This document shows positions 5,954 through 38,255 of a stretch of 38,260 bases of DNA, piece after piece. Under the pieces are notes generated by a model. It was not told the origin of the DNA and made no database searches. It saw only the letters and a program-made list of their open reading frames with translations. The position numbers and the translations under genes were made by a program. How positions within the stretch are numbered: the stretch's first letter is position 1; every line of letters starts with the position of its first letter. Source of the DNA: an uncultured Bacteroidota bacterium (GTDB lineage: Bacteria > Bacteroidota > Bacteroidia > Chitinophagales > Chitinophagaceae); contig CAIVEH010000210.1 in NCBI GenBank assembly GCA_903904855.1, forward strand, positions 1 to 38,260. The letters are read 5' to 3'.

Positions 5954-6652
5954 ATGAACAACCAAATAACCAACATTAAGCTCCGCGACTGGACCGAAAC
6001 CAAGGCCCACTCAAGCTGGCAGATTTTCAAGATAATGGCTGAATTTGTTCAGGGTTTTGAGACCCTGGCCAAGATAGGCCCCTGTATATCTATATTCGGG
6101 TCGGCACGCACACAGCCGGGGCATAAATATTATGAACTTGCTATGGATATTGCCAAACGCCTGGCTGAAGAGGGTTTTGGCATCATTACCGGTGGCGGGC
6201 CGGGAATAATGGAGGCAGCCAATAAAGGGGCCAGTATGGCCTCTGGGCGCAGCGTGGGACTCAATATAGCACTGCCCTTTGAGCAATCGAGCAATCCCTA
6301 CATCAACAGGGATACCTCTATGAATTTCGATTACTTTTTTGTGCGCAAGGTTATGTTTACCAAGTATTCGCAGGGCTTTGTAATGATGCCGGGTGGCTGG
6401 GGCACTATGGATGAGTTTTTTGAAGTTGCCACCCTTATACAGACCCGTAAATTTACCCAGACACCAATGATATGTATGGGTACAGCCTACTGGAATGGCC
6501 TCTTCGACTGGATGCGCGACACTATGCAGGATGGCGAAAACAACATCAGCCCGGGCGACCTGGAAATGATCAAGGTATTTGATACAGCAGAGGAAGTAGT
6601 GGATTATATCCGTGATTTTTATTCGCACAATAAATTGCAGCCTAACTTCTAA
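5954..6652 (+). CDS. LOG-family protein (TIGR00730 Rossmann fold)
   Basis: The 232-aa product belongs to the LOG/lysine-decarboxylase-like Rossmann family. Confirmed members are cytokinin riboside 5'-monophosphate phosphoribohydrolases, or more generally nucleotide 5'-monophosphate nucleosidases. It shows the nucleotide-binding GGGPGIMEAANKGA (residues 80-93) and the catalytic PGGWGTMDE (146-154), including the conserved Glu154. The family was once annotated as 'lysine decarboxylase', but there is no PLP site. The stop codon lies inside the first unit of a heptad array that runs straight to the next start codon. Real substrate unknown. Confidence 0.9.
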   Translation: MNNQITNIKLRDWTETKAHSSWQIFKIMAEFVQGFETLAKIGPCISIFGSARTQPGHKYYELAMDIAKRLAEEGFGIITGGGPGIMEAANKGASMASGRSVGLNIALPFEQSSNPYINRDTSMNFDYFFVRKVMFTKYSQGFVMMPGGWGTMDEFFEVATLIQTRKFTQTPMICMGTAYWNGLFDWMRDTMQDGENNISPGDLEMIKVFDTAEEVVDYIRDFYSHNKLQPNF

Positions 6653-6705
6653 AGACCAAATTCCAAGGACCAAAGTCCAAAATCCCAATAACAAATTCCA
6701 CAAAA
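6650..6705. repeat. Heptad array filling the stop-to-start gap (8 x 7 bp)
   Basis: The gap splits into eight consecutive 7-mers: TAAAGAC, CAAATTC, CAAGGAC, CAAAGTC, CAAAATC, CCAATAA, CAAATTC, CACAAAA. The first contains the stop codon of the LOG gene and the last abuts the ATG at 6706. Units are degenerate around CAAAnTC. Confidence 0.8.
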
Positions 6706-7359
6706 ATGACCACTTCCCTTTTAGCCAGACCGATAGAAGCATATGCCGAACAATTCACCACTGCCGAGTCGAAGGTACTTGCTGCACTTAACAGGGAAAC
6801 CAATCTGAAAAGGGGCGATGCAATAATGCTTTCCGGGCATCTGCAGGGGGCTGTATTAACCATGCTCAGCAATATGATAAGGCCAGCCAGGGTTCTGGAG
6901 ATTGGCACTTTTACCGGATATTCTGCTATTTGCCTGGCTCAGGGGTTACAGCCGGATGGCCTATTGCATACCCTGGAGATTGATGAAGAACTGCATGATA
7001 TTGCTGCAGGGTATATTGAAGCTGCCGGGCTGAGGGATAAAATTGTTCAGCACACTGGTATTGCATCAGAAATAATCCCGCAACTGAATGAAACCTTTGA
7101 CCTTGTTTTCATTGATGCAGACAAACTGAATTACGAACTGTATTACGACCTTGTATTTGATAAAGTGCGACCAGGAGGTTTCATTATTGCCGATAATGTA
7201 CTCTACGATGGCGAGGTGGTTTTGCCTGAAGGACAGCAGAGTAAAAATGCCAGGGCAATAAATGGTTATAACCAGAAAATAAAATCTGATAAACGGGTTG
7301 AGCATCTACTACTGCCGGTTAGGGATGGATTGATGATAGTGAGGAAACTGGTGGGATAG
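6706..7359 (+). CDS. SAM-dependent O-methyltransferase (class I, family 3)
   Basis: This 217-aa enzyme belongs to the caffeoyl-CoA/catechol O-methyltransferase-like family (Methyltransf_3). SAM motif I is 'VLEIGTFTGYSAICLA' (residues 63-78). Metal- and substrate-binding acidic residues occur in 'FIDADK' (135-140) and 'IIADNVLYDGEV' (160-171), matching the divalent-metal site of the family. It would move a methyl group from SAM to a hydroxyl, often of a catechol. The substrate is not evident. The ATG directly follows a heptad array, and the gene converges on the glycosidase gene 25 bases downstream. No terminator is visible between them. Confidence 0.9.
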   Translation: MTTSLLARPIEAYAEQFTTAESKVLAALNRETNLKRGDAIMLSGHLQGAVLTMLSNMIRPARVLEIGTFTGYSAICLAQGLQPDGLLHTLEIDEELHDIAAGYIEAAGLRDKIVQHTGIASEIIPQLNETFDLVFIDADKLNYELYYDLVFDKVRPGGFIIADNVLYDGEVVLPEGQQSKNARAINGYNQKIKSDKRVEHLLLPVRDGLMIVRKLVG

Positions 7360-7384
7360 CCGGTCTATATTCTTCATCAACCAA

Positions 7385-8131
7385 CTATCTTACCACACCT
7401 ATCATTGCCCCGAAATTGCCACCGGTATCATTTAAATTTAATTTTGGCAGGTACATTCTGGATATTGCCCCATCCAGAAAAAGAGCATTGCTGCAGTTCA
7501 GGTTCTCTTTGAACAGGCTGGCAAAATCATAAAAGTTTACCCAATCCTGGGAGATGGCAAACACTACTCTACCCTCCCTGTTCACCCCAACTCCGCTTCT
7601 TATATTCAGATTAGCCGAACCATTGTTGAAATTACTGTTGATTACGCCATTGGTTACCAGCATAGGGCCGGATTGGGTGGCAAAGGTGGTTTTGTTTTTA
7701 TAAGCGCTGAATTCCTGAGAGGTAACAACTTTGGCCTCTGACTTTGTAAGCAGAAATACACCATTGGGCTGCATAAAGAAATTTCCGTTCCCTTTGGTTG
7801 CAAGAGTAATAGATTTTATCTGTTTGCCATTTTCAATATACAAACCACAGGGTGTATTATCGGGGGTATACATGCCTGCATTGGTAGCAAACAGTAATTC
7901 ATGGCCAGTTTCGTTCACATGCTTCTTCAGGTTACTAAGGCTCTTTATTTTTTCGTTGTGCCCATTTTTCCAGAATAGCTGAATCTTTTCTTTCGGGTAA
8001 TCTGCTATGTAAACAGCATAGTGATGGCCTTTATAATCAATGATTCGGGGCTGGCCGAAGCTTGAAATGGATGACAGACAAATGCTAAGGACAAAAAAAT
8101 AAAATGGGATTCTATTGTAGTTATGAATCAT
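7385..8131 (-). CDS. Exported phosphodiester glycosidase (NAGPA-domain) protein
   Basis: The 248-aa product has an N-terminal hydrophobic signal segment (about residues 9-26, FYFFVLSICLSSISSFG). The rest resembles the NAGPA/DUF2233 domain of the 'uncovering enzyme' for mannose-6-phosphate. Diagnostic segments are 'LFATNAGMYTPDNTPCGLYIENGK', 'NGVFLL', 'ATQSGPMLVTNG' and 'NCSNALFLDGAISRMYLP' near the C-terminus, where the family's active-site acidic residue sits. It should cleave a sugar-phosphodiester bond in the periplasm or outside the cell. The substrate is unknown. It is the last of four exported-protein genes on this strand. Confidence 0.85.
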   Translation of the reverse strand: MIHNYNRIPFYFFVLSICLSSISSFGQPRIIDYKGHHYAVYIADYPKEKIQLFWKNGHNEKIKSLSNLKKHVNETGHELLFATNAGMYTPDNTPCGLYIENGKQIKSITLATKGNGNFFMQPNGVFLLTKSEAKVVTSQEFSAYKNKTTFATQSGPMLVTNGVINSNFNNGSANLNIRSGVGVNREGRVVFAISQDWVNFYDFASLFKENLNCSNALFLDGAISRMYLPKLNLNDTGGNFGAMIGVVR

Positions 8132-8156
8132 AAATCGAGGTTGAGAGAATCAAAAG

Positions 8157-8711
8157 TTAAGGATAAAAAACTTCGTTTTCAGTTCGAAAACTACGCAACT
8201 CCGGGAAATAGTGTATTGAATGGCTATTGTCATTACCAAATATATTTCCATAGTATACTGCAACGGTATGTTTCTTAACAGAATCAGTTTCACTGGTGCT
8301 TAATACCTTATAATGCATGGAATAATCGATAGCCGATAATACATAAGACTGAAAATCGTCGAATATATGTAATTTGATTTCGTCATTACCTACTGATTTT
8401 CTGACATCTGAAATGATAAGGCGGCATATGGATTTATAATCATCTAAATCCGGGTTCGTCAGTTTGATTATGGCATTGCATTCGGTATAAATACTTCCCT
8501 CATCTTTCTGCTGGTAATATTCATAAGGAATCAGTTTAGGGTTTTGCCCTTCGCTAGTAATAGTACGGAACGGCAAAGAGGATTCTTTTACCTCTACTTT
8601 TTGATAGGCATAATAATAATCTTTCAGAAAAAACCATAGTGCGGACCGAACTGCAAAAAGCAGAAAAACAATTAATAAAATGAGAATGACTTTGCGTTTT
8701 GGGTTTTTCAT
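8157..8711 (-). CDS. Membrane-anchored hypothetical protein
   Basis: The 184-aa product begins with basic residues (MKNPKRKV) and one hydrophobic helix at about residues 8-29 (ILILLIVFLLFAVRSALWFFL). A soluble extracytoplasmic domain of about 150 residues follows. It contains 'YTECNAIIKLTNPDLDDYKSICRLIISDVRK' and 'IHIFDDFQSYVLS'-like mixed alpha/beta sequence. No family or catalytic motif was recognised. It lies 25 bases from the glycosidase gene and 30 bases from the CAP gene on the same strand, so the three could be one operon. Confidence 0.7.
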   Translation of the reverse strand: MKNPKRKVILILLIVFLLFAVRSALWFFLKDYYYAYQKVEVKESSLPFRTITSEGQNPKLIPYEYYQQKDEGSIYTECNAIIKLTNPDLDDYKSICRLIISDVRKSVGNDEIKLHIFDDFQSYVLSAIDYSMHYKVLSTSETDSVKKHTVAVYYGNIFGNDNSHSIHYFPELRSFRTENEVFYP

Positions 8712-8741
8712 TTGCCTAAAATATGGTTTTAAAAATTATTT

Positions 8742-9401
8742 TTATTCATGATTTGCTATGACTACACTTACATATATTGAATACCCACTGCCAGTAATGG
8801 CAGAATTACCTTTACTTACAGAGTCACTGGTATATTTGATTGCAAAGCCGATCCCAATATCTTTATAAGCTGCGTAAATATTTCCAATACCTAAAAGATG
8901 GTTTCGGTGGCCCAGTGTTTGACTCTGCGAATCAATAATCAGCGATTTTATAGCTGTGGTACCTGCCATCTCATAACCCGGTACAGAATTGCCTAACCCG
9001 ATGTTATAACCGGATTCAGAATAGATGGATTCAAAACTATTGCTGGTTTTATCTTTCAGAAGAACAGGGTTAACAGTGTATCCGGCCTTATTTATGTAAT
9101 AGTCCATACCATAGCCTTTACCGTCAACATGAGCAAAGTAATTATTTTTTGCCATGTCGCTGGCTTTCCATTCAGCAACTTTTGCCAACTTATCATTCCA
9201 TACCAATGCTGTCTTAGTTACATGAAGTGCTTTGGGAAAAGATAATTCCCGATAATACAATTCTGGATTTTGCCTTACTTTATTCAGATAAACGAATGCC
9301 ATATTAGCCTGTTTATGGTCAACAATAATCTTCTTATCTGCCGGTATAAAAGAAACCAAGGCAAATAATGTAATTAATATTAACCCTCCTTTGAATTTCA
9401 T
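8742..9401 (-). CDS. Exported CAP-domain (SCP/PR1-like) protein
   Basis: The 219-aa product starts MKFKGGLILITLFALVSFIPA, a signal peptide. I chose the ATG at 9401 because the longer frame needs a TTG at 9410. The mature part is a CAP domain: 'AFVYLNKVRQNPELYYRELSFP' (first helix) and 'ALVWNDKLAKVAEWKASDMAKNNYFAHVDGKG', with the His of 'FAHVDG' and the acidic residue in the helix before it. Then come 'ESIYSESGYNIG' and the last 'GHRNHLLGI' histidine segment. Bacterial CAP proteins are secreted and of varied, mostly unknown function. No protease activity is implied. Confidence 0.88.
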   Translation of the reverse strand: MKFKGGLILITLFALVSFIPADKKIIVDHKQANMAFVYLNKVRQNPELYYRELSFPKALHVTKTALVWNDKLAKVAEWKASDMAKNNYFAHVDGKGYGMDYYINKAGYTVNPVLLKDKTSNSFESIYSESGYNIGLGNSVPGYEMAGTTAIKSLIIDSQSQTLGHRNHLLGIGNIYAAYKDIGIGFAIKYTSDSVSKGNSAITGSGYSIYVSVVIANHE

Positions 9402-9423
9402 TAAAACCAAATTCTAAATTACA

Positions 9424-9454
9424 GATGTGCCACACTGTGAAAGTGTGGCACATC
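9424..9454 (-). terminator. Perfect 13-bp hairpin after the PKD gene
   Basis: GATGTGCCACACT (9424-9436) pairs perfectly with AGTGTGGCACATC (9442-9454) around a GTGAA loop. It lies 24 bases beyond the stop of the PKD gene and before the CAP gene on the same strand. The T-run behind it is only weak on the minus strand, so it may terminate inefficiently or protect the mRNA 3' end. Confidence 0.65.
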
Positions 9455-9477
9455 ATTGAATATCAATTAGTTTACCG

Positions 9478-12400
9478 TTATCGTATTATCGTCACATCAC
9501 CCTTGAGGAACAGCGGTGCGCCGGTTTCGCAGATGGCATCAATTACCCAGACATATACATCCGGCTTAGGTGCAGATCCATTGAAACTGCCGTCCCATGC
9601 GTTCGATTCATCGTTGAGTTGAATGTTGGCACGTTCAAACAAAAGGTTGCCCCAACGGTTATAGATACGGAATGACTTAACTACACTAACGCCTGTGCCC
9701 CTAGGATAAAACACATCATTCTTACCATCGTTATTGGGTGTAAAACTGTTGGGTATAAATAACTGACTGTTGTCGCAATAAAGCAAAATACGTACCGTAT
9801 CTGTTGCTGTACAACCATGTTTGGTTGTAACAGTAACGGTATACGTTGTATTCACTGAAGGAGAGGCAACAGGGTTGTAGCAACTATCGCAGCTCAGTGT
9901 TTTTTCAATCTTCCACAGATAATTATTGATCAGTGTACCAGTGGCGGTAAGTTGTGCCTGCGTACCCGCCAGAATTTCCTGATCAGGACCAGCATCTACA
10001 GTTGGCAATGGGAAAACTACCACAGTAACATAATTGGTATCCGGCTGGCATCCTGCCAATTGGGCAATGGCCATATAAGTAGTTGTGGAAGGTGGCGTTG
10101 CAACAGGATAGCCACTATTCGGATTGCTTAGGCCTGTAGCGGGTAACCATGTGTATTTTGTTCCACCAGTGTCGAATAGCGGTACCGGAATACCATAACA
10201 TACCTGAGTATCGCCCCATGCGCGGGCAATGGTGAGTGTTTTAAGAAATACGGATGTTGTATCGGTATTTTTACATCCAACAGCGTCTGTACCCGTTACT
10301 GTATATTGTGTAACCACATCAGGAGAAACTTTCGTAGGATTGCAGGCTGTGCAACTCATTGTGCCTGCCCCTGCCCATGTATAAGACACACCGCCATAGC
10401 CATAGAGAGTTGCAGCATCTCCGACACAAATAATGGTATCAGGGCTTACTGTAATTACAGGCAGCGGATAAACTGTTACATTCTGGTTGGTGACAGCTGT
10501 ACAACCCCATGCATCAGCAACCTTAAGCGTTACCGGATATGTTCCAACGGCAGTATAAGTAGTTGAAGGCGATGCCAGGGTACTTGTTAATCCGTTGTAG
10601 GTCCAGTTCCAACTGGAAATGTGAGACCAATAGCTGCGGGATGTATCAGAAAAGATTACTGAATCGCCTATGCAAACAGGATTAGGAATGGTTTTGAAGC
10701 CAGGGTAAACAGCATCTACTTTTATAGTATCGAGACCAATACTGGAGTTCTGGCAGCCGGTGAGATTACTCATTACCAGCTTGGGTACATATTTGCCAGG
10801 TACCAGATAAAGATGGGTAATGGTATCGCTCATTGATGTTGTTGTGGTAGTGCCATCGGCAAAATCCCAGGTAATGCTAGGTACATTGGAAAGGTCGGCA
10901 CTGAAGAAAACATTAAGTGGTACGCAGCCAGAATCAGGAGTGTACTGGAATGCCCCTGCATAACCCAAAATATTAACATGTCCATAGACGGTATCCTTGC
11001 AGCCATATAAATTAGAAGCTATAAGCCTGATGGTATCATATCCTGGCGCAATATACAAATCGGAAGGATTGATTAATGTTGAAATGCTACCATCGCCCAG
11101 AGCCCAGTTATAGAATGTGGCGCCCGTACTGGTATTGAAAAAATGAACAGTCAGTGGCGGGCAAATGGATATGGAATCGTCCATATGGAAGGCTGCAACC
11201 GGTTTGTTGTCGTGTATATAAGCAGGATATGTGGCTGTATTGAAGCAACCATGAATATCTGTAACTGTAAGGGAAACAGTATAATAGCCCGTATCAGCAT
11301 ATGTATGTGAGGGACTAACCAGGGTAGATGTACCGCCATCCCCAAAAGTCCAGCTACATGTCGTGGTAGAACTTGATGTATTGGTGAATATTACAGCGGA
11401 CCCGAGACATGGATTCAGATTACTTGCAACAAATGAGGCTATAGGTTTATAGGCCGAAACAAGCGGCAGTGAAGCGGTACCTACGCAACCCATATCATCG
11501 GTAACAGACTCTGTAATAGTAAATGTACCGGCTGTGGTATAAGTATGCACAACAGTAGTACCTGAAGGCAGCGTTCCACCATCGCCAAATGCCCAGGTGT
11601 GGGTAGGTAATGTAGTGCCGGGTATATCGGTGGTGGCATCCGTAAAGGTTACAGTCAATGGTACACAACCACTTGTAGGTACAGCTGTAAAACTGACGAC
11701 AGGCTTGCCAACATGCAGGTAATTTAACCTGATTGCTGTATCAAAGCAATTATTCTGATCCTCAATTATCAGCGTTATGGTATAAATACCCCTGGTACTG
11801 AAGGTATCGCGGTAATTAGGGGATGTACTATCGGCTGAATGGCCACTGCTATGCCAGTAATACCCTGAAGCTACACCACCCGTGACCGTGGATGTGAACA
11901 AGACCACTGCACCCGCACATACAGTAGAATCGGGTGTGGAGAATGTGACGACGGGCCGTGTGAGGTCAATTAATTTTGTAGCCGTATCACGGCATCCGGT
12001 AATTGCATTATAAGTGGTAAGTGTACAGGTATAAACTACGGGTAATGGATAATCATGTGTAGGGTTTTTTATTGTGGAAGTAGTTCCATCGCCAAAAATC
12101 CAGATACGTGTATCATCACCATATGAATAATCGGTAAACATGACTCGTTTTGCCGGAGTACAAAGTACGCTATCGCCGATAATAGCCATTGAAGAATCTA
12201 TGGTAATGAAATTGAAAACAACAGCAGGCCCTGCGCAACCATTATAAATAGGGGTAAGTGTAACTGAAAAGACACCAGGATAGGGATAATGGTGGGTTGT
12301 TGAATCAGCGGTGGTATACCAGGTGCCAGTAGTATCGCCAAATTGCCATTTATATATTCCGACTGGTCCTGTAACAGTTGTTGCCTGGAAATGGATCTCG

Positions 12401-15531: not shown

Positions 15532-15576
15532 AATCAGTAAAAGTTAGCTGCAAAGTAATAAGAGAAACGAATAGGT

Positions 15577-22847: not shown

Positions 22848-22882
22848 CTTTAACTTCAGACTAAGGACTAAATACTTCAGAC
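22848..22882. repeat. Short heptad array (5 x 7 bp)
   Basis: Five consecutive 7-mers CTTTAAC, TTCAGAC, TAAGGAC, TAAATAC, TTCAGAC read on the plus strand. TTCAGAC occurs twice, two units apart. The array lies in the spacer between the biotin carrier and exported-protein genes. On the minus strand the units read GTCTGAA, GTATTTA, GTCCTTA, close to the GTCTAAA units of the array at 36385. Confidence 0.6.
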
Positions 22883-22890
22883 TCAAAATA

Positions 22891-23391
22891 CTATTCCAGT
22901 TCTATTAGAACAGCGCCTTTTTCCACTGCGGTCCTTTCTGTTACTTTTATGGCTTTAACTGTAGCAGGGCCTGTTGCCTTCAGGATGTTTTCCATTTTCA
23001 TTGCTTCCAGTACCACCAGCCCGTCGCCTTTATTAACCTGCTGGCCAGGGGTAACCAGTATTTTCAAAATCATTCCGGGCATCGGTGCTTTTACAGGTTC
23101 TGTTTTCTGCAGAGCCTTAAGGTTAATGCCCATATTGCTCAGCAGCAGGTCAATAGGTTCCTTTACAGATATAGTATAAAGCTGACCATTAACACGGAGT
23201 GAAATTTCCTTGTTATTGCGGTCTGTATTTTCAATAATAGCAGTAAAACTTTTACCATTATATAATACACTTATAAGTCCATTGGCTTGCCAGCTAGCAT
23301 CCCAATTGGCAGGTGTATTATTAATTTCAAAACGTCCTCCATCCTGGTTGATGGAAAATGTTTGCTTGTCATTTACTGTTAATTGCAACAC
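22891..23391 (-). CDS. Biotin carboxyl carrier (biotinyl-lipoyl) domain protein
   Basis: The 166-aa product, from a GTG start, has an N-terminal domain of about 85 residues with beta-rich sequence. A C-terminal biotinyl domain follows: 'APMPGMILKILVTPGQQVNKGDGLVVLEAMKMENILKATG', where the Lys in EAMKM (residue about 131) is the biotinylation site. It should carry CO2 in an acyl-CoA carboxylase (propionyl-CoA, methylcrotonyl-CoA or acetyl-CoA type) or a similar complex. No carboxylase or biotin carboxylase gene is nearby, so its partner is encoded elsewhere. Its own promoter box lies at 23414-23421. Confidence 0.88.
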   Translation of the reverse strand: MLQLTVNDKQTFSINQDGGRFEINNTPANWDASWQANGLISVLYNGKSFTAIIENTDRNNKEISLRVNGQLYTISVKEPIDLLLSNMGINLKALQKTEPVKAPMPGMILKILVTPGQQVNKGDGLVVLEAMKMENILKATGPATVKAIKVTERTAVEKGAVLIELE

Positions 23392-29016: not shown

Positions 29017-29035
29017 GTATTAAAATAACAACTAA

Positions 29036-29079: not shown

Positions 29080-29185
29080 CTTATTAAGCTTTTAAATTGA
29101 AATTTCAGTTTGTAACTGAATTAGCAAATAATAAATTGATGTAGCAAGCTAATGTTGAATTAAAAAGCCATTTCCAACCTGCGAC

Positions 29186-29896: not shown

Positions 29897-30173
29897 ACTA
29901 AATTATGGTTTGAAGAGATTGTGCAAAAGAAAGAAAAATTCTGCACTGTTTTTATGATTAATTGCAAATTAAATTTGGTAGATTAAAGGGATTATGATTT
30001 GATGTGTGAAACTGAACATTAGCTTATTCTATTAGAAGTAATAAATAATAAAATAATTAAAGTTCATCCTAATATACCATAGTAATAATATTGTTCTAAA
30101 TCAACAGTATACTTTTGTCAATTACAATAAGTAGATTCAAACAATTACACACGGTAATTTCTACTCATGATTT

Positions 30174-30755: not shown

Positions 30756-30891
30756 AAAATACTGGTTTTAATTAACGGTATTCAATAATGATTTTAACCT
30801 TGTTCTATGTGCTGATTTCAGTGGCAGCAACAAACCGAAAACTGTTAAATCCAAGGTCTATTTACCGGTTTCAGCAAATTGCCCCAACAAG

Positions 30892-31047
30892 CTAAAGTAT
30901 CCTTTTACCCTGGATAATTCTCAAAAGCACAGCAATCACTGCAATAACAAAAAGAATGTGGATCAACCTGCCAATATGGAACATAAAAAAACCTAATGCC
31001 CAACCGATAACGAAAACCACTGCAATAATATAAAGTAGAGATCTCAT
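30892..31047 (-). CDS. lmo0937-family small membrane protein (51 aa)
   Basis: The frame from the ATG at 31045-31047 reads MRSLLYIIAVVFVIGWALGFFMFHIGRLIHILFVIAVIAVLLRIIQGKRIL. Two hydrophobic segments (residues about 4-22 and 29-44) are joined by a short loop, and the end is basic. This is the lmo0937-type small membrane protein common in Bacteroidota and Firmicutes, with no known function but often stress-responsive. A TAACTTTG promoter box (complement of 31091-31098) lies 43 bases before it. Confidence 0.85.
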   Translation of the reverse strand: MRSLLYIIAVVFVIGWALGFFMFHIGRLIHILFVIAVIAVLLRIIQGKRIL

Positions 31048-31090
31048 TTTTTTGTTTTTAAAAATTACTAATCAGCTTTTTCTACAGTAT

Positions 31091-31098
31091 CAAAGTTA
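31091..31098 (-). promoter_or_regulatory. TAACTTTG promoter box for the small membrane protein
   Basis: The complement of 31091-31098 reads TAACTTTG, matching TAnnTTTG, on the minus strand. Confidence 0.55.
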
Positions 31099-31282
31099 GC
31101 AATTTTCTTATTCTATTACTCCGAAATTATAATACAAAATTGGCGTGATTATTTATAAAAAGAGATATGAATGCATAAAATTCAAATAACAATAAAACAA
31201 ATTTCTGTCAACCAATTTCAGACAATTCAAAAGAAACTAACACCCTGTGGATACTTATTTAAACCTATGATGATCATAATAT

Positions 31283-31290
31283 TATTTTTG
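31283..31290 (+). promoter_or_regulatory. TATTTTTG promoter box for the two-helix membrane protein
   Basis: TATTTTTG fits TAnnTTTG on the plus strand and lies 19 bases before the ATG at 31310. Confidence 0.5.
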
Positions 31291-31309
31291 TATCAAATAA
31301 TCTTTATCC

Positions 31310-31921
31310 ATGCCATTGACAACGTTGAAGGACGACCTCCTTGCCGAATTCAGGGAAGAAAGGGTTATGATCAACGAACAGATAGCCCTGCTCGACCCTC
31401 TTGCCACTTCTTTACGCAAGCCTGCAGCACAAAGACTACTCAGCAGCAGCACACTGGCGCTTAGTGAGTATATATGCTACATTATCAGTCTTGGCGGTGT
31501 AGCCTGTATCTGTTTTATGCATAAAATTTACCCTTTCAGCGGACTATATGATATTTTCTATAACCCCGGTATCAGAAATACAATTGGCGGCCCCAATCTG
31601 ATGTATCTCACCCTTGGCGTTTATTCCCTGGCATCAATAGGCGTTGCCCTTACCTTTATTTTAGGCCGTGTTGCCCGCGAAATGAGACTTAAAAATGAGA
31701 TACTCTACCATGCAGGAAAAGATATTAAAACCATTGTAGGCCAGCATCTGGAACGCAAAGCAGCATTAGATACTATTGAGCAGCGACATATGCTGGGTAT
31801 GTCGGGCATACAGCAACCTTTGCAACAGAAAGTATCTACACTTGCCCCTGCGGCCAATACACCATTTATGGCCTCCCTTACTGGTTCAATAAATGAATTC
31901 CCTAATCCAGGATTTGAATAA
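31310..31921 (+). CDS. Two-helix membrane protein of unknown function
   Basis: The 203-aa product has a charged N-terminal stretch of about 48 residues rich in Leu, Glu and Arg, likely a helix or coiled coil ('TLKDDLLAEFREERVMINEQIALLDPLATSLRK'). Two transmembrane helices follow (about 53-71 and 99-118), separated by a loop of about 25 residues. A long C-terminal tail ends in '...FPNPGFE'. After the second helix come 'ILYHAGKDIKTIVGQHLERKAALDTIEQRHML'. No family was recognised. It is single, with a promoter box at 31283. Confidence 0.75.
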   Translation: MPLTTLKDDLLAEFREERVMINEQIALLDPLATSLRKPAAQRLLSSSTLALSEYICYIISLGGVACICFMHKIYPFSGLYDIFYNPGIRNTIGGPNLMYLTLGVYSLASIGVALTFILGRVAREMRLKNEILYHAGKDIKTIVGQHLERKAALDTIEQRHMLGMSGIQQPLQQKVSTLAPAANTPFMASLTGSINEFPNPGFE

Positions 31922-31938
31922 TCAGATATAGTTTGATC

Positions 31939-31974
31939 ATTAGTTTGCAGCAATTGTTTATGCTGCAAACTAAT
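31939..31974. terminator. Perfect 14-bp hairpin between convergent genes
   Basis: ATTAGTTTGCAGCA (31939-31952) pairs with TGCTGCAAACTAAT (31961-31974) around an 8-base loop. It sits between convergent genes 31921 and 32013. Neither flank carries a strong T-run, so termination strength is uncertain. Confidence 0.55.
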
Positions 31975-32011
31975 AACAATCAACTTTCAATTTTAAACTA
32001 AAAACCACCAA
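31963..32011. repeat. Heptad array abutting the stop codon (7 x 7 bp)
   Basis: On the minus strand the sequence splits into TTGGTGG, TTTTTAG, TTTAAAA, TTGAAAG, TTGATTG, TTATTAG, TTTGCAG. All seven begin with TT and most end in AG. The array runs from just beyond the stop of the BNR gene (32013) into the right arm of the hairpin. Confidence 0.55.
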
Positions 32012-32012
32012 C

Positions 32013-34607
32013 TCAATAAACCACAACCCTTACATGCGATATCGCAGCCCCACGGCTTATCTCGCATATATAGAAGCCTGGAGCCAGCCCGCTGGTGTTG
32101 ATTTTCATCCTGCCACTGCCATCAAATAAATTATTTGAATTGATGGCGACTTTACCATCTGCAGTTATGAGTTTTATCTGAACAGGACCTGTGAGTAATT
32201 CGTCGTCAGTAGTTGTAAGTGTAAATGAATCATGACTTGGGTTAGGCGAAACAACTGTAGATGTCTCAGCAATTTGCTTAACCGATAATGAACCCGGATT
32301 GTCGGCTTTAGTGCTTTTCCACATACCCCGTCCGAAGGTTGCAGCCCACAATTCACCTGATGAATACTTAATATGCAAGTCATAAACATGCACTGTAGGC
32401 AGATGTGTATTATAAAGCGCCCAGTCTGTCATGGTAGTATCCTTGAAAAATACAGCAGCATCAGTGCCAATGTACTTTGTGCGGGATAAAGTATCGGATA
32501 TCAGGCAGTTTACCGGAATATTAGGCAAAGAACCAGTCTCATTAGTCCATGTATTTGTAGTGAGGTTGTAACTGTAAACCTTATCAGTAGCGCTATATCC
32601 GCTCACTGTTACCCAGATATGCTTAGCATTTTTCGGGTCAACTACTACATCTGAAATGAAATTGGTAAACGGAATATGAATGGTATCCCATGTTGAACCC
32701 ATATTGGCTGTATAATAAAGCACAGATTTCCAGATAGTGTAGTCATCGTAAGAAGTATAAATATAGTTGGTGTTGGTAGGGGCCCAGGCTATAAAATTTA
32801 TACTAGAGTTACTGTCGAATACAGGGGAAATCGGGCTCCATGATGTGCCATTATTATGCGAGATATAGAGATTTCTAAAACCTAGCAACAAAGTAGCAGT
32901 ATCAGTTGGATGCAGCAGGTACGGACTTATCCAACCACCGCCATCATCATGTAGAGTATCTGTGATGCTGTGATAAGTGATACCCCCATTCCTGGTCATA
33001 TTGATATAGCCATTCTGAGATGAACAATAAAAAATATTTGCAGGGTTGCCATAGTTAATAAGAGGCTGCATACCATCGCCGCCCATAAGGTCGGTACCTA
33101 CACCGCCATCTATCATTTTGGTACCATTGTCCTGAGCACCACCTATGCAGAACGAAACATGATTATCCACAGCATTCCGGTAAAACTCGGTAATACATAA
33201 TCCGTTGCTCAGATTGGTCCAGGGAGATGTAAGCGGACCGTAATTCTTATAAATGCCACCATCGCAGGTTTCGAACAATGCACCTGTAAGGGGGTGATAA
33301 GCCAGGCAATGCTTATCGGCATGAACCACTTCAAGGCTGGTACCGGTACCATACCAGCCATTGCAAACTGTCCAGCTAATACCGCCATCAGAAGAATAAT
33401 AACTGTTTACTCCACCAATAGTAACATTTGAGGCATTGGTTGGGCTAACAGATATACACAGATCATACCAGCCCTGACCGCCACATGATGAAGTAGGAAG
33501 ACCAATATCCCAGCCCAGCAATTCATTTGTACAAGAGGTATCATTATGATATATCAGGGAATAATTGGAACCACTGTTTATTGATTTATAAATACCCAAT
33601 AAACCAGAACTGGTATCGGATGCAATAGCCATAACCTGGGCCGGATTTGCAGCGCTGACCGCTAAATTTATGCGTTGGGCTTTTATAAGATTGGAAACAG
33701 GGGTAAATGTCAAACCGGCATTTATGGATCTAACAATCTGGCAACTGGTATCAGTATAAATGGTGCCATAAATGGTGGAAGTATCACCTGGTTTGAAAAG
33801 CAATTGCTTAAAGTTGAGCGTACCAGAAGGAGTCCAGCTTGCGCCCGCATTATGTGTGATATAAACACCGGAATTAGTACCCAGCAGAATATTATTGGTA
33901 TCAAGCGGATTGATCAAAATGGAGCGTGCGTTATTGTAATCAGTTGGCAACCAGCTCACACCGGCAGTAGACCAAGTTGCGCCGGCATCATGCGATACAA
34001 TGATACCTGAACTATATGCATCACCTGCATCGCCATCGCCTGTGGCTACATAGATTGTATTCCTGTTTCGGGGGTTTATCTTGATATCCGCTACACCAAG
34101 TGTCGGGAGGAAATCATATAAGGATGTCCAACTAGCACCACCATCTGTGGTTTTCCAGGTACTGCCGGCAGCGCTGCCGATATAAAAAGTATTTGAATCA
34201 ACCGGATCAAAGGCAACAACGTTGACCCTGCCAATACCAGCATATCCACCCGGGGTAGTAGATGGCCCCTGAAATATCCAGTTGGAAGGTAAAGTTGAGG
34301 TTGATTTTGCAGCTTTATTTTTATAAGCCTGCCACTCAGTAAGGGTTCTTAGCGGAGGTACAATATAGCCATCCTTATCCAGATGTTGTTTCCAGTACCA
34401 GTCCCATTTCTGCACCAGGTGGTTCTTAGATTCGCCAGGCTCACCATTAAGATTGGTTACCTCATTTTTCTCACCAGCATTAACCAATGGATAATTTTTC
34501 ACTACATCAGAAAACTTAACAGGGCCAGCACCTTTGGGCATCCATGGTTGGGCTGATAGGTTATTGACAGTCAATAAGATGACAACAGCAGAAAATAATT
34601 TTTTCAT
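32013..34607 (-). CDS. Secreted BNR/VPS10-like repeat protein with T9SS sorting domain
   Basis: The 864-aa product (from MKKLFSAV, signal peptide ending about 'NLSAQPW') contains repeated 'SxDxGxTW' BNR/sortilin-type blades. They are seen at 'TTDGGASWTSLYDF', 'SHDAGATWSTAG', 'THNAGASWTPSG', 'SSDGGISWTVC', 'SHNNGTSWSPIS' and 'TANMGSTWDT'. The C-terminal about 80 residues ('VVSPNPSHDSFTLTTTDD', '...GLAPGFYICEISRG') are a Por_Secre_tail type A sorting domain, directing type IX secretion and surface attachment. The blade fold resembles glycosyl hydrolase or sortilin propellers, but no catalytic set was assigned. The ATG at 34607 was preferred over a TTG at 34616. Confidence 0.9.
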   Translation of the reverse strand: MKKLFSAVVILLTVNNLSAQPWMPKGAGPVKFSDVVKNYPLVNAGEKNEVTNLNGEPGESKNHLVQKWDWYWKQHLDKDGYIVPPLRTLTEWQAYKNKAAKSTSTLPSNWIFQGPSTTPGGYAGIGRVNVVAFDPVDSNTFYIGSAAGSTWKTTDGGASWTSLYDFLPTLGVADIKINPRNRNTIYVATGDGDAGDAYSSGIIVSHDAGATWSTAGVSWLPTDYNNARSILINPLDTNNILLGTNSGVYITHNAGASWTPSGTLNFKQLLFKPGDTSTIYGTIYTDTSCQIVRSINAGLTFTPVSNLIKAQRINLAVSAANPAQVMAIASDTSSGLLGIYKSINSGSNYSLIYHNDTSCTNELLGWDIGLPTSSCGGQGWYDLCISVSPTNASNVTIGGVNSYYSSDGGISWTVCNGWYGTGTSLEVVHADKHCLAYHPLTGALFETCDGGIYKNYGPLTSPWTNLSNGLCITEFYRNAVDNHVSFCIGGAQDNGTKMIDGGVGTDLMGGDGMQPLINYGNPANIFYCSSQNGYINMTRNGGITYHSITDTLHDDGGGWISPYLLHPTDTATLLLGFRNLYISHNNGTSWSPISPVFDSNSSINFIAWAPTNTNYIYTSYDDYTIWKSVLYYTANMGSTWDTIHIPFTNFISDVVVDPKNAKHIWVTVSGYSATDKVYSYNLTTNTWTNETGSLPNIPVNCLISDTLSRTKYIGTDAAVFFKDTTMTDWALYNTHLPTVHVYDLHIKYSSGELWAATFGRGMWKSTKADNPGSLSVKQIAETSTVVSPNPSHDSFTLTTTDDELLTGPVQIKLITADGKVAINSNNLFDGSGRMKINTSGLAPGFYICEISRGAAISHVRVVVY

Positions 34608-34706
34608 CGCGTTCAATTTTTACTTTTAAAAAAGGTCTTGGTAAATGTAAATATTTCTTACTCCCCAATTCCAGCAATTCAACAAACAGCAGAACTGCAA
34701 AATGAA

Positions 34707-35219
34707 TTACTGCATTATAATATCCGGCTTCTTAACAAGGTTTTTGACCGGTAAAGATAACCAGCCACTACCACCTGTTTTATAAAACAGTGTATTCTTT
34801 GTATCGGCAAGCACTTCGGCTGGTACAGTGAATTTACCACCCGGCAATGAAACCAACTGCAGGGTATCTCCTTTATGTATCTTATCGGCAGTTACTATTT
34901 CAGTATTGTATTCCTGCCTGTCTCCCTTCACAGGGGCATCGAATTTCACTTTATGTGCCTTGGAGATATTACAGTTTTCCCAGCCATTCTCGCCTCTCCA
35001 GAAAATGGTTTCCGGATAATTCTTGCCTTCCCAAATAACAATAAAGTGATAATTGGTTTTTGGCGCCATACGCGGAATACCCGGTACTGTTTTCTGAGAC
35101 CAGGCTTCCAGCACGGTAATTCCGGTTTTGGAGACTTTTTTTGTCTTGTTTTTAGCCACTGATTGAAAACCGGCAATCATTGCCAAACTAAGTATAATAA
35201 AGATTCCTTTTGAGTTCAT
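34707..35219 (-). CDS. Exported hypothetical protein
   Basis: The 170-aa product has a signal peptide (MNSKGIFIILSLAMIAGFQSVA). A basic stretch (KNKTKKVSKTG) is followed by a beta-rich domain with 'ITVLEAWSQKTVPGIPRMAPKTNYHFIVIWEGKNYPETIFWRGENGWENC' and 'YNTEIVTADKIHKGDTLQLVSLPGGKFTVPAEVLADTKNTLFYKTGGSGW'. No known family recognised. It is 99 bases from the BNR gene on the same strand and upstream of it. Confidence 0.7.
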   Translation of the reverse strand: MNSKGIFIILSLAMIAGFQSVAKNKTKKVSKTGITVLEAWSQKTVPGIPRMAPKTNYHFIVIWEGKNYPETIFWRGENGWENCNISKAHKVKFDAPVKGDRQEYNTEIVTADKIHKGDTLQLVSLPGGKFTVPAEVLADTKNTLFYKTGGSGWLSLPVKNLVKKPDIIMQ

Positions 35220-35373
35220 AACAGTAAAAATAAAGAAAACAGTTGATACTAAGTGTATTTTATTGATGATTTCAATTTTGAAATATTTTCATTTTACCGT
35301 TCACTGACTATTTTTATTTCAGAGTCATGACTTCGGTATATTTAGTTTAGTTTCTTTGCACAATAATTTCAGT

Positions 35374-36396
35374 ATGGCAGATCAGAAAAAACGCGGTATA
35401 ATATTAATGAACCTGGGATCTCCTGATTCCACGAGTGTAAAGGATGTTCGCAAATACCTGAATGAATTCCTGATGGATGAGCGGGTAATAGATACACCCT
35501 ATTTGCAGCGTTTGTTGCTGGTAAAAGGCATCATTTCTCCGTTCCGTGCTCCCAAGTCGGCAGAGGCTTATCATACCATCTGGACCAAGGATGGTTCACC
35601 TCTGGTAGTCATTACAGCTCAACAGCAGTTGGCGTTACAAAAACTGGTGAAGGAGCCTGTTGAGATATCTATGCGTTATGGCAATCCTACTATGAAATTT
35701 GCCTACGATAAGATACTGAGAGAAAATCAGGATCTGGAAGAAGTGATATTGCTACCCCTCTATCCTCACTATGCCATGAGCAGTTTTGAGACTGCTGTTG
35801 AACATGCCAAAACGGTACACGCCGAAGGTAAATACCCGTTCCGGATCTCTACAATTCCTCCATTTTATAATCACCCTGCCTACATTAAAGCCCTTGCTGA
35901 GAGCATTAAATCTAAGCTCACGCCCTCAAGCCATTTGCTTTTCAGCTATCACAGTATACCCGAGCGTCATATCCATAAGAGTGATGTTACCGGTAACCAT
36001 TGCCTCAAAGCCAATTGCTGCGAAACGGATTCACCTGCCCACCAGTACTGCTACAAGCATCAGTGCCTGGTAACTACACGGCTTGTAACCGAAATGCTGG
36101 GTATACCGAAAGATAAATACAGTATTGCCTTTCAGTCGAAACTGGGCCGGTCGGAATGGCTTAAACCAGCTACAACAATGCGCATGGAACAGATGCCAGG
36201 TGAAGGTATTAAAGAGCTGGCAGTGGTATGCCCGGCCTTTGTAAGCGACTGTCTGGAAACACTGGAAGAAATTGGCATACGGGAACGGGAGAACTTCATG
36301 AAAGCTGGAGGTGAGAAATATACCTTCATTCCGTGCATGAATACCCAACCGTCGTGGATAACAGCTATGATAGAGATTTGTGGGCTAAAGTCGTAA
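35374..36396 (+). CDS. hemH: Ferrochelatase
   Basis: The 340-aa product inserts Fe2+ into protoporphyrin IX, the last step of protoheme synthesis. The catalytic His193 is in 'FSYHSIPERH' (190-199), and the acidic helix 'FVSDCLETLEEIGIRERE' (289-306) has the other metal-channel residues. It carries a Cys-rich insert 'GNHCLKANCCETDSPAHQYCYKHQC' (Cys210, 215, 216, 226, 231), typical of several Bacteroidota ferrochelatases and compatible with metal or Fe-S binding. The start is the ATG at 35374; the open frame reaches only a TTG at 35356. hemJ follows 125 bases downstream across a heptad array. The stop codon is in the first units of that array. Confidence 0.95.
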   Translation: MADQKKRGIILMNLGSPDSTSVKDVRKYLNEFLMDERVIDTPYLQRLLLVKGIISPFRAPKSAEAYHTIWTKDGSPLVVITAQQQLALQKLVKEPVEISMRYGNPTMKFAYDKILRENQDLEEVILLPLYPHYAMSSFETAVEHAKTVHAEGKYPFRISTIPPFYNHPAYIKALAESIKSKLTPSSHLLFSYHSIPERHIHKSDVTGNHCLKANCCETDSPAHQYCYKHQCLVTTRLVTEMLGIPKDKYSIAFQSKLGRSEWLKPATTMRMEQMPGEGIKELAVVCPAFVSDCLETLEEIGIRERENFMKAGGEKYTFIPCMNTQPSWITAMIEICGLKS

Positions 36397-36510
36397 GTCT
36401 AAAGTCGTAAGTCTAAAGTCTAAAGTCTAAAGTCTAAAGTCTAAAGTCTAAAGTCGTTAGTCTCAAGTAAAAACCATTACCCAAATAACAAAAGACAAAT
36501 TACAAATAAC
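36385..36510. repeat. Heptad array across hemH stop and hemJ leader (18 x 7 bp)
   Basis: Twelve clean units run from 36385 to 36468: CTAAAGT, CGTAAGT, CTAAAGT, CGTAAGT, six more CTAAAGT, CGTTAGT, CTCAAGT. The same register continues through 36510 with AAAAACC, ATTACCC, AAATAAC, AAAAGAC, AAATTAC, AAATAAC. The hemH codons Leu-Lys-Ser-stop are themselves encoded by the first two units. Confidence 0.85.
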
Positions 36511-36521
36511 AAATTTATGCA

Positions 36522-37055
36522 ATGTTTTATATAAAAGCGCTCCATATCATCTTCATCGTTACCTGGTTCAGCGGTATGTTTTATATCGTGCGGTTATTCA
36601 TATACAACACTGAAGCCAATGAAAAAACAGAACCTGAACGGACGATTTTGCAGAACCAGTTCAATATTATGATCCGCCGCTTGTGGATGGGCATTACATG
36701 GCCATCGGCTATTCTGACTCTGATTTTCGGACCACTAATGTGGTACAAATTTATGGGTAACCAATTTGTTATGGTTGACTGGCTAACCATTAAGCTCATT
36801 TTTGTCGTATTACTGTATGCATATCATTTATCGCTGAATACTATTTATAAACAACAATCAAAAGGCTTATTCAAATACACTTCAAATCAGTTGCGCATCT
36901 GGAATGAAGTGGCAACCATCTTCCTGATAGCAATTATTATGCTGGCTGTAGTAAAACAAGGAATGGGCCTAGTTTATGGCCTGCTGGGGCTGGTTTTGGT
37001 TATCGTTTTGTTGATGAGTGCGATTAAGATTTATAAACGGATAAGGGGGAAATAA
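36522..37055 (+). CDS. hemJ: Protoporphyrinogen IX oxidase HemJ (UPF0093/CopD-like)
   Basis: The 177-aa membrane protein has four or five helices. The first is 'IKALHIIFIVTWFSGMFYIVRLFIYN' (about residues 4-29), with the His8 and Arg24-type residues of HemJ. 'RRLWMGITWPSAILTLIFG' and 'LLYAYHLSLNTIYKQQSKG...SNQLRIWNE' are the other HemJ hallmarks. HemJ oxidises protoporphyrinogen IX to protoporphyrin IX, the substrate of the neighbouring ferrochelatase. The two form a natural functional pair. A heptad array fills the gap between them. Confidence 0.93.
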   Translation: MFYIKALHIIFIVTWFSGMFYIVRLFIYNTEANEKTEPERTILQNQFNIMIRRLWMGITWPSAILTLIFGPLMWYKFMGNQFVMVDWLTIKLIFVVLLYAYHLSLNTIYKQQSKGLFKYTSNQLRIWNEVATIFLIAIIMLAVVKQGMGLVYGLLGLVLVIVLLMSAIKIYKRIRGK

Positions 37056-37064
37056 TAATTAAAT

Positions 37065-37098
37065 CTTTGCGAAGGTAGCCTCACGCGAAGGCGCAAAG
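37065..37098. repeat. CTTTGCG inverted-repeat element
   Basis: CTTTGCG (37065-37071) faces CGCAAAG (37092-37098). Inside are GCGAAGG direct copies and an AGG/CCT mini-stem. Elements with this 'CTTTGCG..CGCAAAG' look recur between genes in Bacteroidota. It follows hemJ and may act as a weak terminator. Confidence 0.6.
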
Positions 37099-37207
37099 GA
37101 GGTGCGTTTTGCAAACAACTGATTTAAGCACGCAATAACCAGCAATATGCCGAGTTTTTATATCTAATCGATTTACGGGAATTCTGCTGAAAAATTCTAC
37201 ATCCAGA

Positions 37208-37750
37208 TCATACCTCATCCATAATCACATCCTTAACAATCTTCCAGCCATAATTCGAATTGACAAATGTTGTCCTGTACTTAAAAGTGCCTTCTTTAAA
37301 ACAATGCGGGCTCCAGATTTTAAAGAAAGCATTATGAATTACCTTTTGCTGGTATTCAACATATGTAACAGCTCCCTTGTTCCCCCTTTCACCGGGCTTT
37401 GAAATGGATAAGATCTCAACCTGGACAGTACCCACTCTGAAATGTAATTCATTATTTTCTTCCTTTAACAGAAAAGGTTGCCCCTTTTTAAGCACCTTAA
37501 TTTCCAAGCTGCCCGGGTTAATTTTACTGCTTGCAACCAGATCAATAAAACCAGCTTTCTTTAAAGCTTTTATATTGTCTGGTACATTATTTCCATCTAC
37601 CATTTTATCCAGGTAAAAACTGCTGTAAAGCATGTCATTGGTGGCCTGATCAATTTGCTTTTTAGCTTCATTTTTTTGCAGGTCTTTACCAGTAGCATAA
37701 AAGGTAAATGAGGTAACCAATAGGGTTAGCATTAACAGGTTCGCTTTCAT
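37208..37750 (-). CDS. Exported hypothetical protein
   Basis: The 180-aa product has a signal peptide (MKANLLMLTLLVTSFTFYATG) followed by a soluble domain. It includes 'KQIDQATNDMLYSSFYLDKMVDGNNVPDNIKALKKAGFIDLVASSKINPGSLEIKVLKKGQPF', 'RVGTVQVEILSISKPGERGNKGAVTYVEYQQKV' and 'FKYRTTFVNSNYGWKIVKDVIMDEV'. The pattern suggests a beta-rich periplasmic domain, possibly an NTF2-like fold by its end (YGWKIV), but I cannot assign a family. It lies alone between hemJ and the edge region. Confidence 0.7.
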   Translation of the reverse strand: MKANLLMLTLLVTSFTFYATGKDLQKNEAKKQIDQATNDMLYSSFYLDKMVDGNNVPDNIKALKKAGFIDLVASSKINPGSLEIKVLKKGQPFLLKEENNELHFRVGTVQVEILSISKPGERGNKGAVTYVEYQQKVIHNAFFKIWSPHCFKEGTFKYRTTFVNSNYGWKIVKDVIMDEV

Positions 37751-37817
37751 ATTTATAGATTTTGATACACTAAAGTAAATATTAAAAATATAAGGAAAAG
37801 TTATTTCTGATAAATGG

Positions 37818-37867
37818 ATTTCATAGGGCGTTGCCCTATGAAATGAGATTTTTCCCTTTCAGGGAAA
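37818..37867. repeat. Twin-hairpin intergenic element
   Basis: Hairpin 1 is a perfect 12-bp stem, ATTTCATAGGGC (37818-37829) with GCCCTATGAAAT (37833-37844), loop GTT. Hairpin 2 is TTTCCCT (37851-37857) with AGGGAAA (37861-37867), loop TTC. This arrangement (GGGCGTTGCCC hairpin followed by a CCCTTTCAGGG hairpin) matches a mobile-like intergenic element common in Bacteroidota, often mis-annotated as a short protein. Confidence 0.75.
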
Positions 37868-37940
37868 TGAAAATAACAAAATATATTTTTAAGAATTATT
37901 TGGACTATGGCTGTTGATTTGGCTTTTAATGCCATCATTA

Positions 37941-38255
37941 TTATTTGTTGTTATTGGTTTTGAGGTTTCTTTGCTGCTGGCGGCGCTCTCTCCGGTTTTG
38001 CGGGGCGGGGGCTACACCCTGTTTTTTATTTTTGTTTGTGGATAATTTTCTATCTTGTTGTTGGTGTAGATCATTTATATGCAATGATTTATGCGAATAG
38101 CCATCTTTTGGGTACACCCTACTTTGCGGTGCGCAGTTTTCAGTTGGCAGTTGGCAATTTACAGTTGGCTGTTTTTCTTTTGTCCTTTCTTCGCCTGATG
38201 ATTCAGGAGATGGATGCGAATTTACCCATTGCTGGTATTCCCTTTCCAATTCCAT
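37941..38255 (-). CDS. Hypothetical open frame at the right edge, probably incomplete
   Basis: The frame runs from a Met at 38253-38255 to a stop at 37941. It may extend beyond the window. Translation is low complexity and basic ('RRERRQQQRNLKTNNNK' at the end, 'ELEREYQQW' near the start). It includes a heptad-repeat stretch translated as 'TVNCQLPTENC'. No domain is recognised. It could be the C-terminal tail of a gene, or not a gene at all. Confidence 0.3.
   Translation of the reverse strand: MELEREYQQWVNSHPSPESSGEERTKEKQPTVNCQLPTENCAPQSRVYPKDGYSHKSLHINDLHQQQDRKLSTNKNKKQGVAPAPQNRRERRQQQRNLKTNNNK
38134..38175. repeat. Heptad array inside the edge open frame (6 x 7 bp)
   Basis: Six consecutive units: CAGTTTT, CAGTTGG, CAGTTGG, CAATTTA, CAGTTGG, CTGTTTT. 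CAGTTGG occurs three times. Arrays of this CAACTG type are, to my recollection, frequent in Bacteroidota intergenic DNA. Confidence 0.75.

Follow-up and report, generated by a model that had tools for sequence, protein, structure and literature searches.

Heptad Arrays at Gene Edges in an Uncultured Chitinophagaceae Bacterium and Their Orientation Toward the Nearer Gene

Introduction

Short arrays of tandem seven-base units, or heptads, lie at the edges of genes in an uncultured bacterium of the family Chitinophagaceae (Bacteroidota), and they follow a rule of orientation. The strand that bears a recurrent ACT trinucleotide runs into the nearer gene, whether the array meets that gene at its start codon or at its stop codon. 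The arrays were noticed in a window, by which we mean the whole analysed stretch of 38,260 nucleotides (nt), contig CAIVEH010000210.1 of assembly GCA_903904855.1, here C210, which belongs to a draft genome of 5.61 Mb in 271 contigs. An original prediction, made from the letters of this window, described five period-7 arrays in gene spacers; the gene-edge position and the polarity presented here go beyond its claims. Tentatively, and at a little short of an even chance of being right, we read the arrays as a polar heptameric satellite of gene boundaries, growing in 7-nt steps and halted at coding DNA.

Position and Polarity at Gene Edges

The main measure was a local agreement score at lag 7, set against dinucleotide shuffles and other lags, and genes were called by a simple script that takes the longest open reading frame (ORF). 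Of the 27 arrays in the first sample, 24 have a gene end no more than 10 nt away, where random placement would give 6.6. The 23 arrays at starts have distances of -20 to 9 nt, with a median of 3, and 18 of them end 0-9 nt before the start codon. At stops there are 26 arrays, with a median distance of 0. The head of an array, which is the 3' end of its ACT strand, has a median distance of 3 nt from the gene and the tail one of 122 nt (47 arrays, random stretches). Array frequency is alike across four classes of spacer, namely the two co-directional ones (12/143 and 12/152), the convergent (7/74) and the divergent (7/92), and there is thus no tie to starts or to the direction of transcription. 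The enrichment between co-directional genes that had been put forward as a check did not appear.

Polarity was read from a consensus learned on the genome's own arrays and blind to position, and spacers too short to have a near edge were excluded. Of the 84 spacer arrays in the set, 52 adjoin one gene edge, with 30 nt or more to the opposite one, and 32 have no single clear edge. The ACT strand runs into the nearer gene in 49 of 51 cases (one more is ambiguous), that is, in 26/26 at starts and 23/25 at stops. By subset, the rule holds for 28/28 arrays of the random first sample, 3/3 of the second sample and 18/20 of the picked stretches (L163-L181), which were mostly chosen for array-like matches and were left out of frequency counts. 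With neighbouring genes of at least 200 amino acids, the count is 45/49, with two more ambiguous; the starts in this set are all ATG, partly by construction, as the script shifts GTG and TTG starts to a nearby ATG.

Runs of phased ACT alone, which mostly lack GG, point into the gene in 26/27 and 18/18 cases in this genome (44/45 together). Outside it, two sets of loci were used, one from relatives and one of hemJ loci, the latter being the best 80 of 375 with Chitinophagales-type names, of which 77 were evaluable and the upstream gene was taken as ferrochelatase. ACT runs point into the gene in 3/4 cases in relatives and 7/7 at hemJ loci; the locus L229/L080 is counted in both sets, which leaves 9/10 distinct. 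Other G-free triplets in a 7-base phase gave 8/10, 6/7, 7/9, 1/4, 3/3, 1/2, 4/5, 2/4 and 7/9 toward the gene in the same random stretches of this genome in which ACT runs gave 26/27, some of these other runs likely lying in the same arrays. A model of 3-mers, with 34 edge arrays as its training set, placed 5/5, 21/27 and 6/10 toward the gene, and 26/33 at hemJ loci. Orientation by G minus C gave 7 to 5 at left edges and 10 to 1 at right edges (picked stretches, score 11), and the unit TCTAAAG is balanced in G and C. In array-free spacers the sense strand after stops is slightly richer in C than in G, opposite to the arrays, and background composition therefore fails to explain the stop side.

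Unit Consensus and the ACT Core

The units of 78 genome arrays were aligned with register and strand free and blind to genes. They share a common unit nACTTAC with 3.42 bits (null mean 2.24 and maximum 2.35 in 30 column-permuted trials), which supports the claim that the differing units of the window are variants of one heptad. This strand is almost without G in five of the seven columns. Between successive units, agreement in the core columns is 0.87, 0.87 and 0.76, against 0.63-0.71 in the others, and the top three columns exceed the rest by 0.157, where 40 null trials reached at most 0.097. This conservation of the ACT columns above the others keeps the idea of a binding protein in play. 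The 47 arrays of relatives, a mixed set, have a different common unit, AAATTCA (3.08 bits, null maximum 2.56), and their informative columns are not better conserved (0.034, null mean 0.038).

Abundance in the Genome and Spread in Relatives

The lag spectrum of whole spacers, in which the all-N contig L023 was still included, is peaked at 7 only mildly (z 5.4; lags 6 and 8, 3.2 and 2.8; lag 3, 7.0; lag 12, 5.5), and local scoring was adopted for this reason. The genome sample for local scoring comprised 60 stretches and 809,875 bases (15,852 N), with the window included and L023 excluded. Period-7 segments that score 11 or more number 29 in its non-coding DNA, where 10 dinucleotide shuffles gave 0.5, and 3 in its 619,210 bases of coding DNA. 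The harmonic period 14 also gave 29, and the other periods from 5 to 13 gave 0 to 11. Shuffled spacers, the test by which the original prediction could have fallen, thus carry no comparable signal, and its placement of the arrays in gene spacers extends to a genome-wide family, though array 5 of the window lies within an ORF. A smaller second class consists of period-8 arrays (ATTGGCAC, CACATTAG), some of them at gene edges, with 11 in this genome's sample; they were located at L208:11806-11967, L009, L185 and L072.

Related genomes have such arrays as well, as had been expected. At score 11 or more, samples held 8 in 107 kb (G004), 2 in 120 kb (G002) and 2 in 120 kb (G018), with 0 to 0.1 in shuffles, though there was none in the samples of G010 (140 kb) and G012 (75 kb). 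From two further families within the order, a sample of 80 kb gave 3 and one of 60 kb gave 2, again with 0 to 0.1 in shuffles. Five phased ACTs are present in 24 of 25 genus genomes, this one included, mostly with tens of matches; G021 has none, and G009, G014 and G019 have one each. The reversed control found few or no matches, except in this genome (175 vs 76) and in G008 (247 vs 62). Of 15 genomes from other genera of the order, 8 show phased-ACT matches, and the reversed control sometimes exceeds them (9 vs 49 in G026, 23 vs 78 in G039).

Across the phylum (296 genomes, this one included), few genomes have exact 21-mers of single units, and their spread is patchy, with GACTTAC in 3, TATCACT in 7 and ACTGCCA in 16. 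The reversed-control 21-mers occur in 6 and 9 genomes for GACTTAC and TATCACT, as read from the rows, and in 2 for ACTGCCA; the first two controls are often present partly because the reversed word is the heptad of another array family. Three 56-nt repeat queries had no match in plasmid records with low-complexity filtering on. The nearest relatives of the window's HemJ are from uncultured Bacteroidetes, at 90% and 86%, and the next, at about 75%, include Flavipsychrobacter, of the Chitinophagales.

The Arrays of the Window

Within the array boundaries of the original prediction, the lag-7 match fractions of arrays 1 to 5 are 0.59, 0.57, 0.62, 0.73 and 0.69, and other lags from 4 to 13 give 0.09-0.49. 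The chance of such a match at any lag from 4 to 14 is 0.0005, 0.009, 0.001, 0 and 0, respectively (2000 own-letter shuffles each, same boundaries). Shuffles of the 8,059 non-coding bases of the window gave 0.39 segments of score at least 9 and 0.055 of score at least 11.1; for this count arrays 1 and 5 fell in called ORFs, array 1 because the script picked a wrong antisense ORF. Arrays 1, 3 and 4 are solid and array 5 is periodic, while array 2 is weak by periodicity. Its score stands at chance, as 1.38 such segments are expected in the non-coding bases of the window, though its five ACTs are exactly phased, a pattern learned from this genome's arrays that had 0 matches in 100 window shuffles. 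The five predicted arrays thus stand in part. Local scores and coordinates are collected in Table 1.

Table 1. Arrays of the window and the genes beside them.
Feature	Position	Strand	Description and basis
Array 1	6653-6705	+	53 nt of degenerate heptads (ACCAAAT, TCCAAGG, ACCAAAG, TCCAAAA ...), from sequence; local score 13.2 (6642-6702)
LOG/lysine-decarboxylase family gene, upstream of array 1	5954-6652	+	Pfam PF03641, E 6.4e-30
O-methyltransferase gene, downstream of array 1	6706-7359	+	Pfam PF01596, E 4.4e-47
Array 2	22853-22883	+	ACTTCAG ACTAAGG ACTAAAT ACTTCAG ACT; five ACT in phase; local score 7.4
Biotin/lipoyl-domain gene (accB-like), stop facing array 2	22891-23391	-	Pfam PF00364, E 6.3e-15
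Array 3	31968-32012	+	Degenerate heptads ACTAATA, ACAATCA, ACTTTCA, ACTAAAA, ACCACCA; local score 11.2
Secreted BNR/sortilin-type protein with Por_Secre_tail, adjoining array 3	32013-34616	-	Pfam PF15902, PF18962
Array 4	36388-36514	-	ACTTTAG/ACTTACG heptads, then ACAAATA-type heptads up to hemJ; local score 54.9
Ferrochelatase gene (hemH)	35356-36396	+	Pfam PF00762, E 2.9e-97
hemJ (UPF0093) gene	36522-37055	+	Pfam PF03653, E 2e-34; homologous start in L056
Array 5	38126-38192	-	ACTGCCA-type heptads, read in frame within ORF 37941-38258 (-), open at contig end; local score 15.1

Arrays 1 and 4 are the two that span the gap from the stop of one gene to the start of the next, as had been described. 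Array 1 is the entire spacer between the LOG-type gene and the O-methyltransferase gene, and its G-poor strand points into the O-methyltransferase start. The ACT strands of arrays 2 and 3 point into stop ends, the first into that of the biotin-carrier gene, about 8 nt off, and the second into that of the gene at 32013, with a gap of 0 nt. In array 4, the ACTTTAG/ACTTACG part (minus strand, 36389-36468) points into the ferrochelatase stop, and the minus strand has nine overlapping ACT-phase matches. The array contains the ferrochelatase stop codon (36385-36396 region), and the ferrochelatase of the related locus L056 has different last residues; arrays of this kind thus appear able to rewrite C-termini.

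Array 5 is translated in frame inside its ORF and is hence not a spacer array. It encodes the C-terminal tail in a multicopy gene that the end of the contig truncates; similar copies lie on C88, C138 and C86 (123 bases). A full-length copy (L263) matches the PHROG 4151 DNA-binding protein, of a phage-type helix-turn-helix family, and terminase small subunits; the fragment in the window had no PHROG match. The ten window proteins adjoining arrays, scanned with Pfam, showed no common pathway.

History at Single Junctions

The junction of array 1 was read in four loci, taken from among the 22 other genomes that match the O-methyltransferase. Of L326, L328 and L329, one has the two genes overlapping by a base, and the other two have 9 and 14 nt between them. 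The fourth locus, L327, has a similar-sized gap that holds a weaker heptad stretch of a different unit (score 8.3).

At the hemJ junction, 23 of the 77 evaluable loci have a period-7 array, built from at least half a dozen differing units, and 20 of the 77 have no more than 20 nt between the genes. Among junctions long enough to shuffle, the arrays number 23 in 75, against 0.32 in shuffles, and the other periods tested gave 0 to 5. Between the window and L056, which are about 81-82% alike here, the distance between anchors differs by 84 nt, or 12 x 7.

Downstream of hemJ, the 25-mer TAACCCCTAAACCCTAAACCGTAGA is exact in 17 of the 80 loci (Niastella, Puia, Longitalea and others; in L072 at about 3640-3830). 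A G/C-rich hairpin with a T run stands just before it in the eight loci printed. For this region two loci gave no match to Rfam and three showed no tRNA, and the stretch may serve the next gene as a leader or attenuator. The heptad-like stretch downstream of hemJ in these 17 loci was excluded from the sets for arm match, distance, purity, polarity and columns, and was kept in the 3-mer count for hemJ loci.

Relation to Known Heptad Repeats

The original prediction knew of no named description of such a system, yet heptameric intergenic repeats of like geometry are on record in PMC4692102 and similar ones in PMC4679880. Rehm et al. (2015, PMC4692102) describe heptads of GGGNATC and GGGGA(C/T)T in Xanthomonas and Nostoc, emphasize quadruplexes and report that no role could be identified. 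They are dispersed, mostly intergenic and of period 7, some overlap stop codons, inverted pairs occur in Xanthomonas, and most stand at the same ORFs in two species with varying length. As there, the arrays described here are tandems of period 7 enriched in non-coding DNA (29 vs 0.5 in shuffles, with 3 in coding DNA), and the orientation is comparable, since in that account the C-rich strand runs into the nearer ORF whatever its direction and the G-rich strand runs away from it. Unlike the G-rich units of that account, ours mostly have an ACT core, only 4/78 arrays are capable of a three-layer quadruplex, the phylum is different, and divergent spacers, under-represented there, are not avoided (7/92).

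MacGregor (2015, PMC4679880) gives direct repeats of TAACTGA in Beggiatoaceae, cyanobacteria and five Bacteroidetes. These are strain-specific, lie mostly between genes, and in some cases occur together with different heptamers. Of 170 sets, 147 point at a start and 12 at a stop, and the largest class ends 1 nt upstream of the start codon. They are also mentioned in a later Thiomargarita paper (PMC4853749). Our arrays are like them in bearing AACT within heptamers, in being mostly intergenic and in ending within a few nt of starts, but unlike them in that stops are as frequent as starts. As cited in PMC4679880 and PMC4692102, Mrazek (2007) treated long prokaryotic simple sequence repeats with units of 5-11, among which heptanucleotides were the commonest, and polymerase slippage was proposed; in those citations neither a polarity nor an ACT core is reported. 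In 1.52 Mb of the present genome, two-unit copies of TAACTGA, GGGAATC, GGGGATT and GGGGACT all numbered 0, the other GGGNATC forms not being part of this search.

Cyanobacterial short tandemly repeated repetitive (STRR) sequences are heptanucleotide tandem units present in many copies, a description that the arrays here resemble; they are not known to follow a rule of position. Repetitive extragenic palindromic (REP) sequences and bacterial interspersed mosaic elements (BIMEs) are dispersed, intergenic palindromic repeats that occur in inverted pairs. A REP unit is a single hairpin, unlike the heptad tandems here. No further paper on the gene-edge rule was seen in listings of the open-licence literature. 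As far as seen, the present arrays differ from the known heptads in having other units, mostly non-quadruplex, a rule that is alike at starts and stops, and a use of divergent spacers.

A Proposed Polar Satellite and the Points Against It

Under the satellite reading, arrays would be gained and would lengthen in whole units through slipped-strand synthesis, with a preference for the ACT strand as the one being synthesized. The head of the array would advance through non-coding DNA until purifying selection at coding sequence halts it, and no recognition of genes would be needed. Polar growth stopped by coding DNA would give flush edges, like polarity at starts and stops, and independence from the direction of transcription. 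The ACT core would be kept because slippage, or a protein stepping 7 nt, favours ACT. Any effect on expression is judged to be secondary, through a G-poor and unstructured leader before starts. Among the mechanisms that the original prediction had offered, a slippage-type satellite fits best, and the inverted arms in 3 of 13 spacers lend its mobile idea a little weight.

Several points weigh against polar growth. The growth is inferred, and no growth step was observed. Consensus polarity is weaker elsewhere (relatives 5/8, hemJ loci 18/25), and outside this genome the head is nearer to the gene than the tail in 13/20 (p 0.23) and 34/52 (p 0.07). Virus-labelled IMG/VR contigs, a set with several near copies and with organisms not given, show no polarity rule (2/10 flush arrays, 13/24 ACT runs). 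Arrays off gene ends follow no clear rule, with the head nearer in 6/10 and 6/7 of this genome's sets and in 1/7 by the 3-mer model. The gradient of unit purity conflicts, at 26 vs 12 in this genome (p 0.05) and 9 vs 16 in relatives (p 0.05), and lends no support to polar growth since the two lean opposite ways. The length difference in whole units comes from one close pair only, where chance would give it 1 time in 7, and it becomes 79 nt if an out-of-frame ATG serves as the anchor. Pure slippage, moreover, predicts seven equal columns, and the columns of this genome are unequal.

A wider version of the idea was proposed since a like architecture, with other units, is reported in unrelated phyla (GGGNATC and, in part, TAACTGA). 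By this analogy, ACTNNNN arrays might be a polar boundary element read by a dedicated factor stepping 7 nt along DNA, and one conserved replication or repair activity (e.g., slippage-prone synthesis from a trinucleotide) might mark and re-mark coding edges, which we regard as improbable.

Alternative Explanations

It is scarcely credible that the period of 7 arises by chance, from the composition of AT-rich spacers, or as an artefact of assembly. Weak arrays such as array 2 do stand at chance by score and the average lag spectrum is mildly peaked, but shuffles fall far below the observed counts both in the sample (29 vs 0.5) and at the hemJ junction (23 vs 0.32), so that chance periodicity was rejected, and similar arrays are found in records not labelled as metagenome-assembled genomes, for example Niastella sp. 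OAS944 (L099). It is very improbable that these heptads, like those of Xanthomonas and Nostoc, form G-quadruplexes and act through them. The geometry relative to genes is alike (PMC4692102), and a subset of units is GGGAATT-like, yet only 4 of 78 arrays have the four GGG runs (14 allow GG runs), which led to the rejection of quadruplexes as a general cause, and the rule is kept by ACT-core runs that mostly lack GG. A regulator that binds leaders and acts through arrays before starts seems rather unlikely. It would suit the 18 of 23 start arrays that end just before the start codon with a G-poor sense strand in 26/26, the conservation of this genome's ACT columns above the null, and the 7-nt steps, which match the binding of one protein per heptamer cited in PMC4679880. 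However, arrays are as frequent between convergent genes, with no start near, as between co-directional ones; the mRNA after stops has the complement of the motif in 23/25; and the ten scanned proteins beside arrays in the window are without a common pathway.

It is also unlikely that the arrays come from a mobile element inserted at gene ends, in the manner of REP sequences or miniature inverted-repeat transposable elements (MITEs), as its terminal inverted repeats or as what is left of it. In spacers with arrays at both edges the polarity rule makes the two opposite, and matched inverted arms occur in 3/13 such spacers of this genome and 3/8 at hemJ loci, against 5% and 2% of cross pairs. 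At score 18 or more, 4 of this genome's spacers match, one being a period-8 pair, against a mean of 0.7 and a maximum of 3 in 20 random pairings. An array also occupies a junction that has no spacer in relatives, and Y1-type transposases are present in 21 of 25 genomes, with 2 matches in G000. Yet the mean arm match in this genome has p 0.14 with no excess at lower scores, most arrays are solitary, inspection of the printed spacers by eye showed no core common to the arms, and the number of transposases is unlinked to that of arrays, with G010 having 144 ACT-heptad matches and no Y1 match. The inverted arm match at hemJ loci (p 0.0008) is confounded by lineage-specific units. The direct arm match in this genome is significant (p 0.0006), which is due at least in part to single long arrays that extend over both halves. 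Read as general hairpins, the matched arms gave a weak signal.

Two loci are recorded here in their own right. At L217:2462-3061, about ten GGTGATA heptads follow one stop and an inverted TATCACC array precedes the next; from its sequence, it looks like an inserted unit with heptad ends and a possible broken small ORF between them. At L022:3894-4129, a heptad array is flanked by two copies of a 37-base direct repeat, and these copies may mark an insertion.

Conclusions

A rule that holds in 49 of 51 cases in one genome, and alike for starts and stops, is hard to derive from signals of transcription or translation alone. The arrays link reports from other phyla that have been explained separately, by quadruplexes and by translation control, and neither explanation covers non-quadruplex units after stop codons. 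The polarity rule is a measurable handle on the making and upkeep of bacterial spacers.

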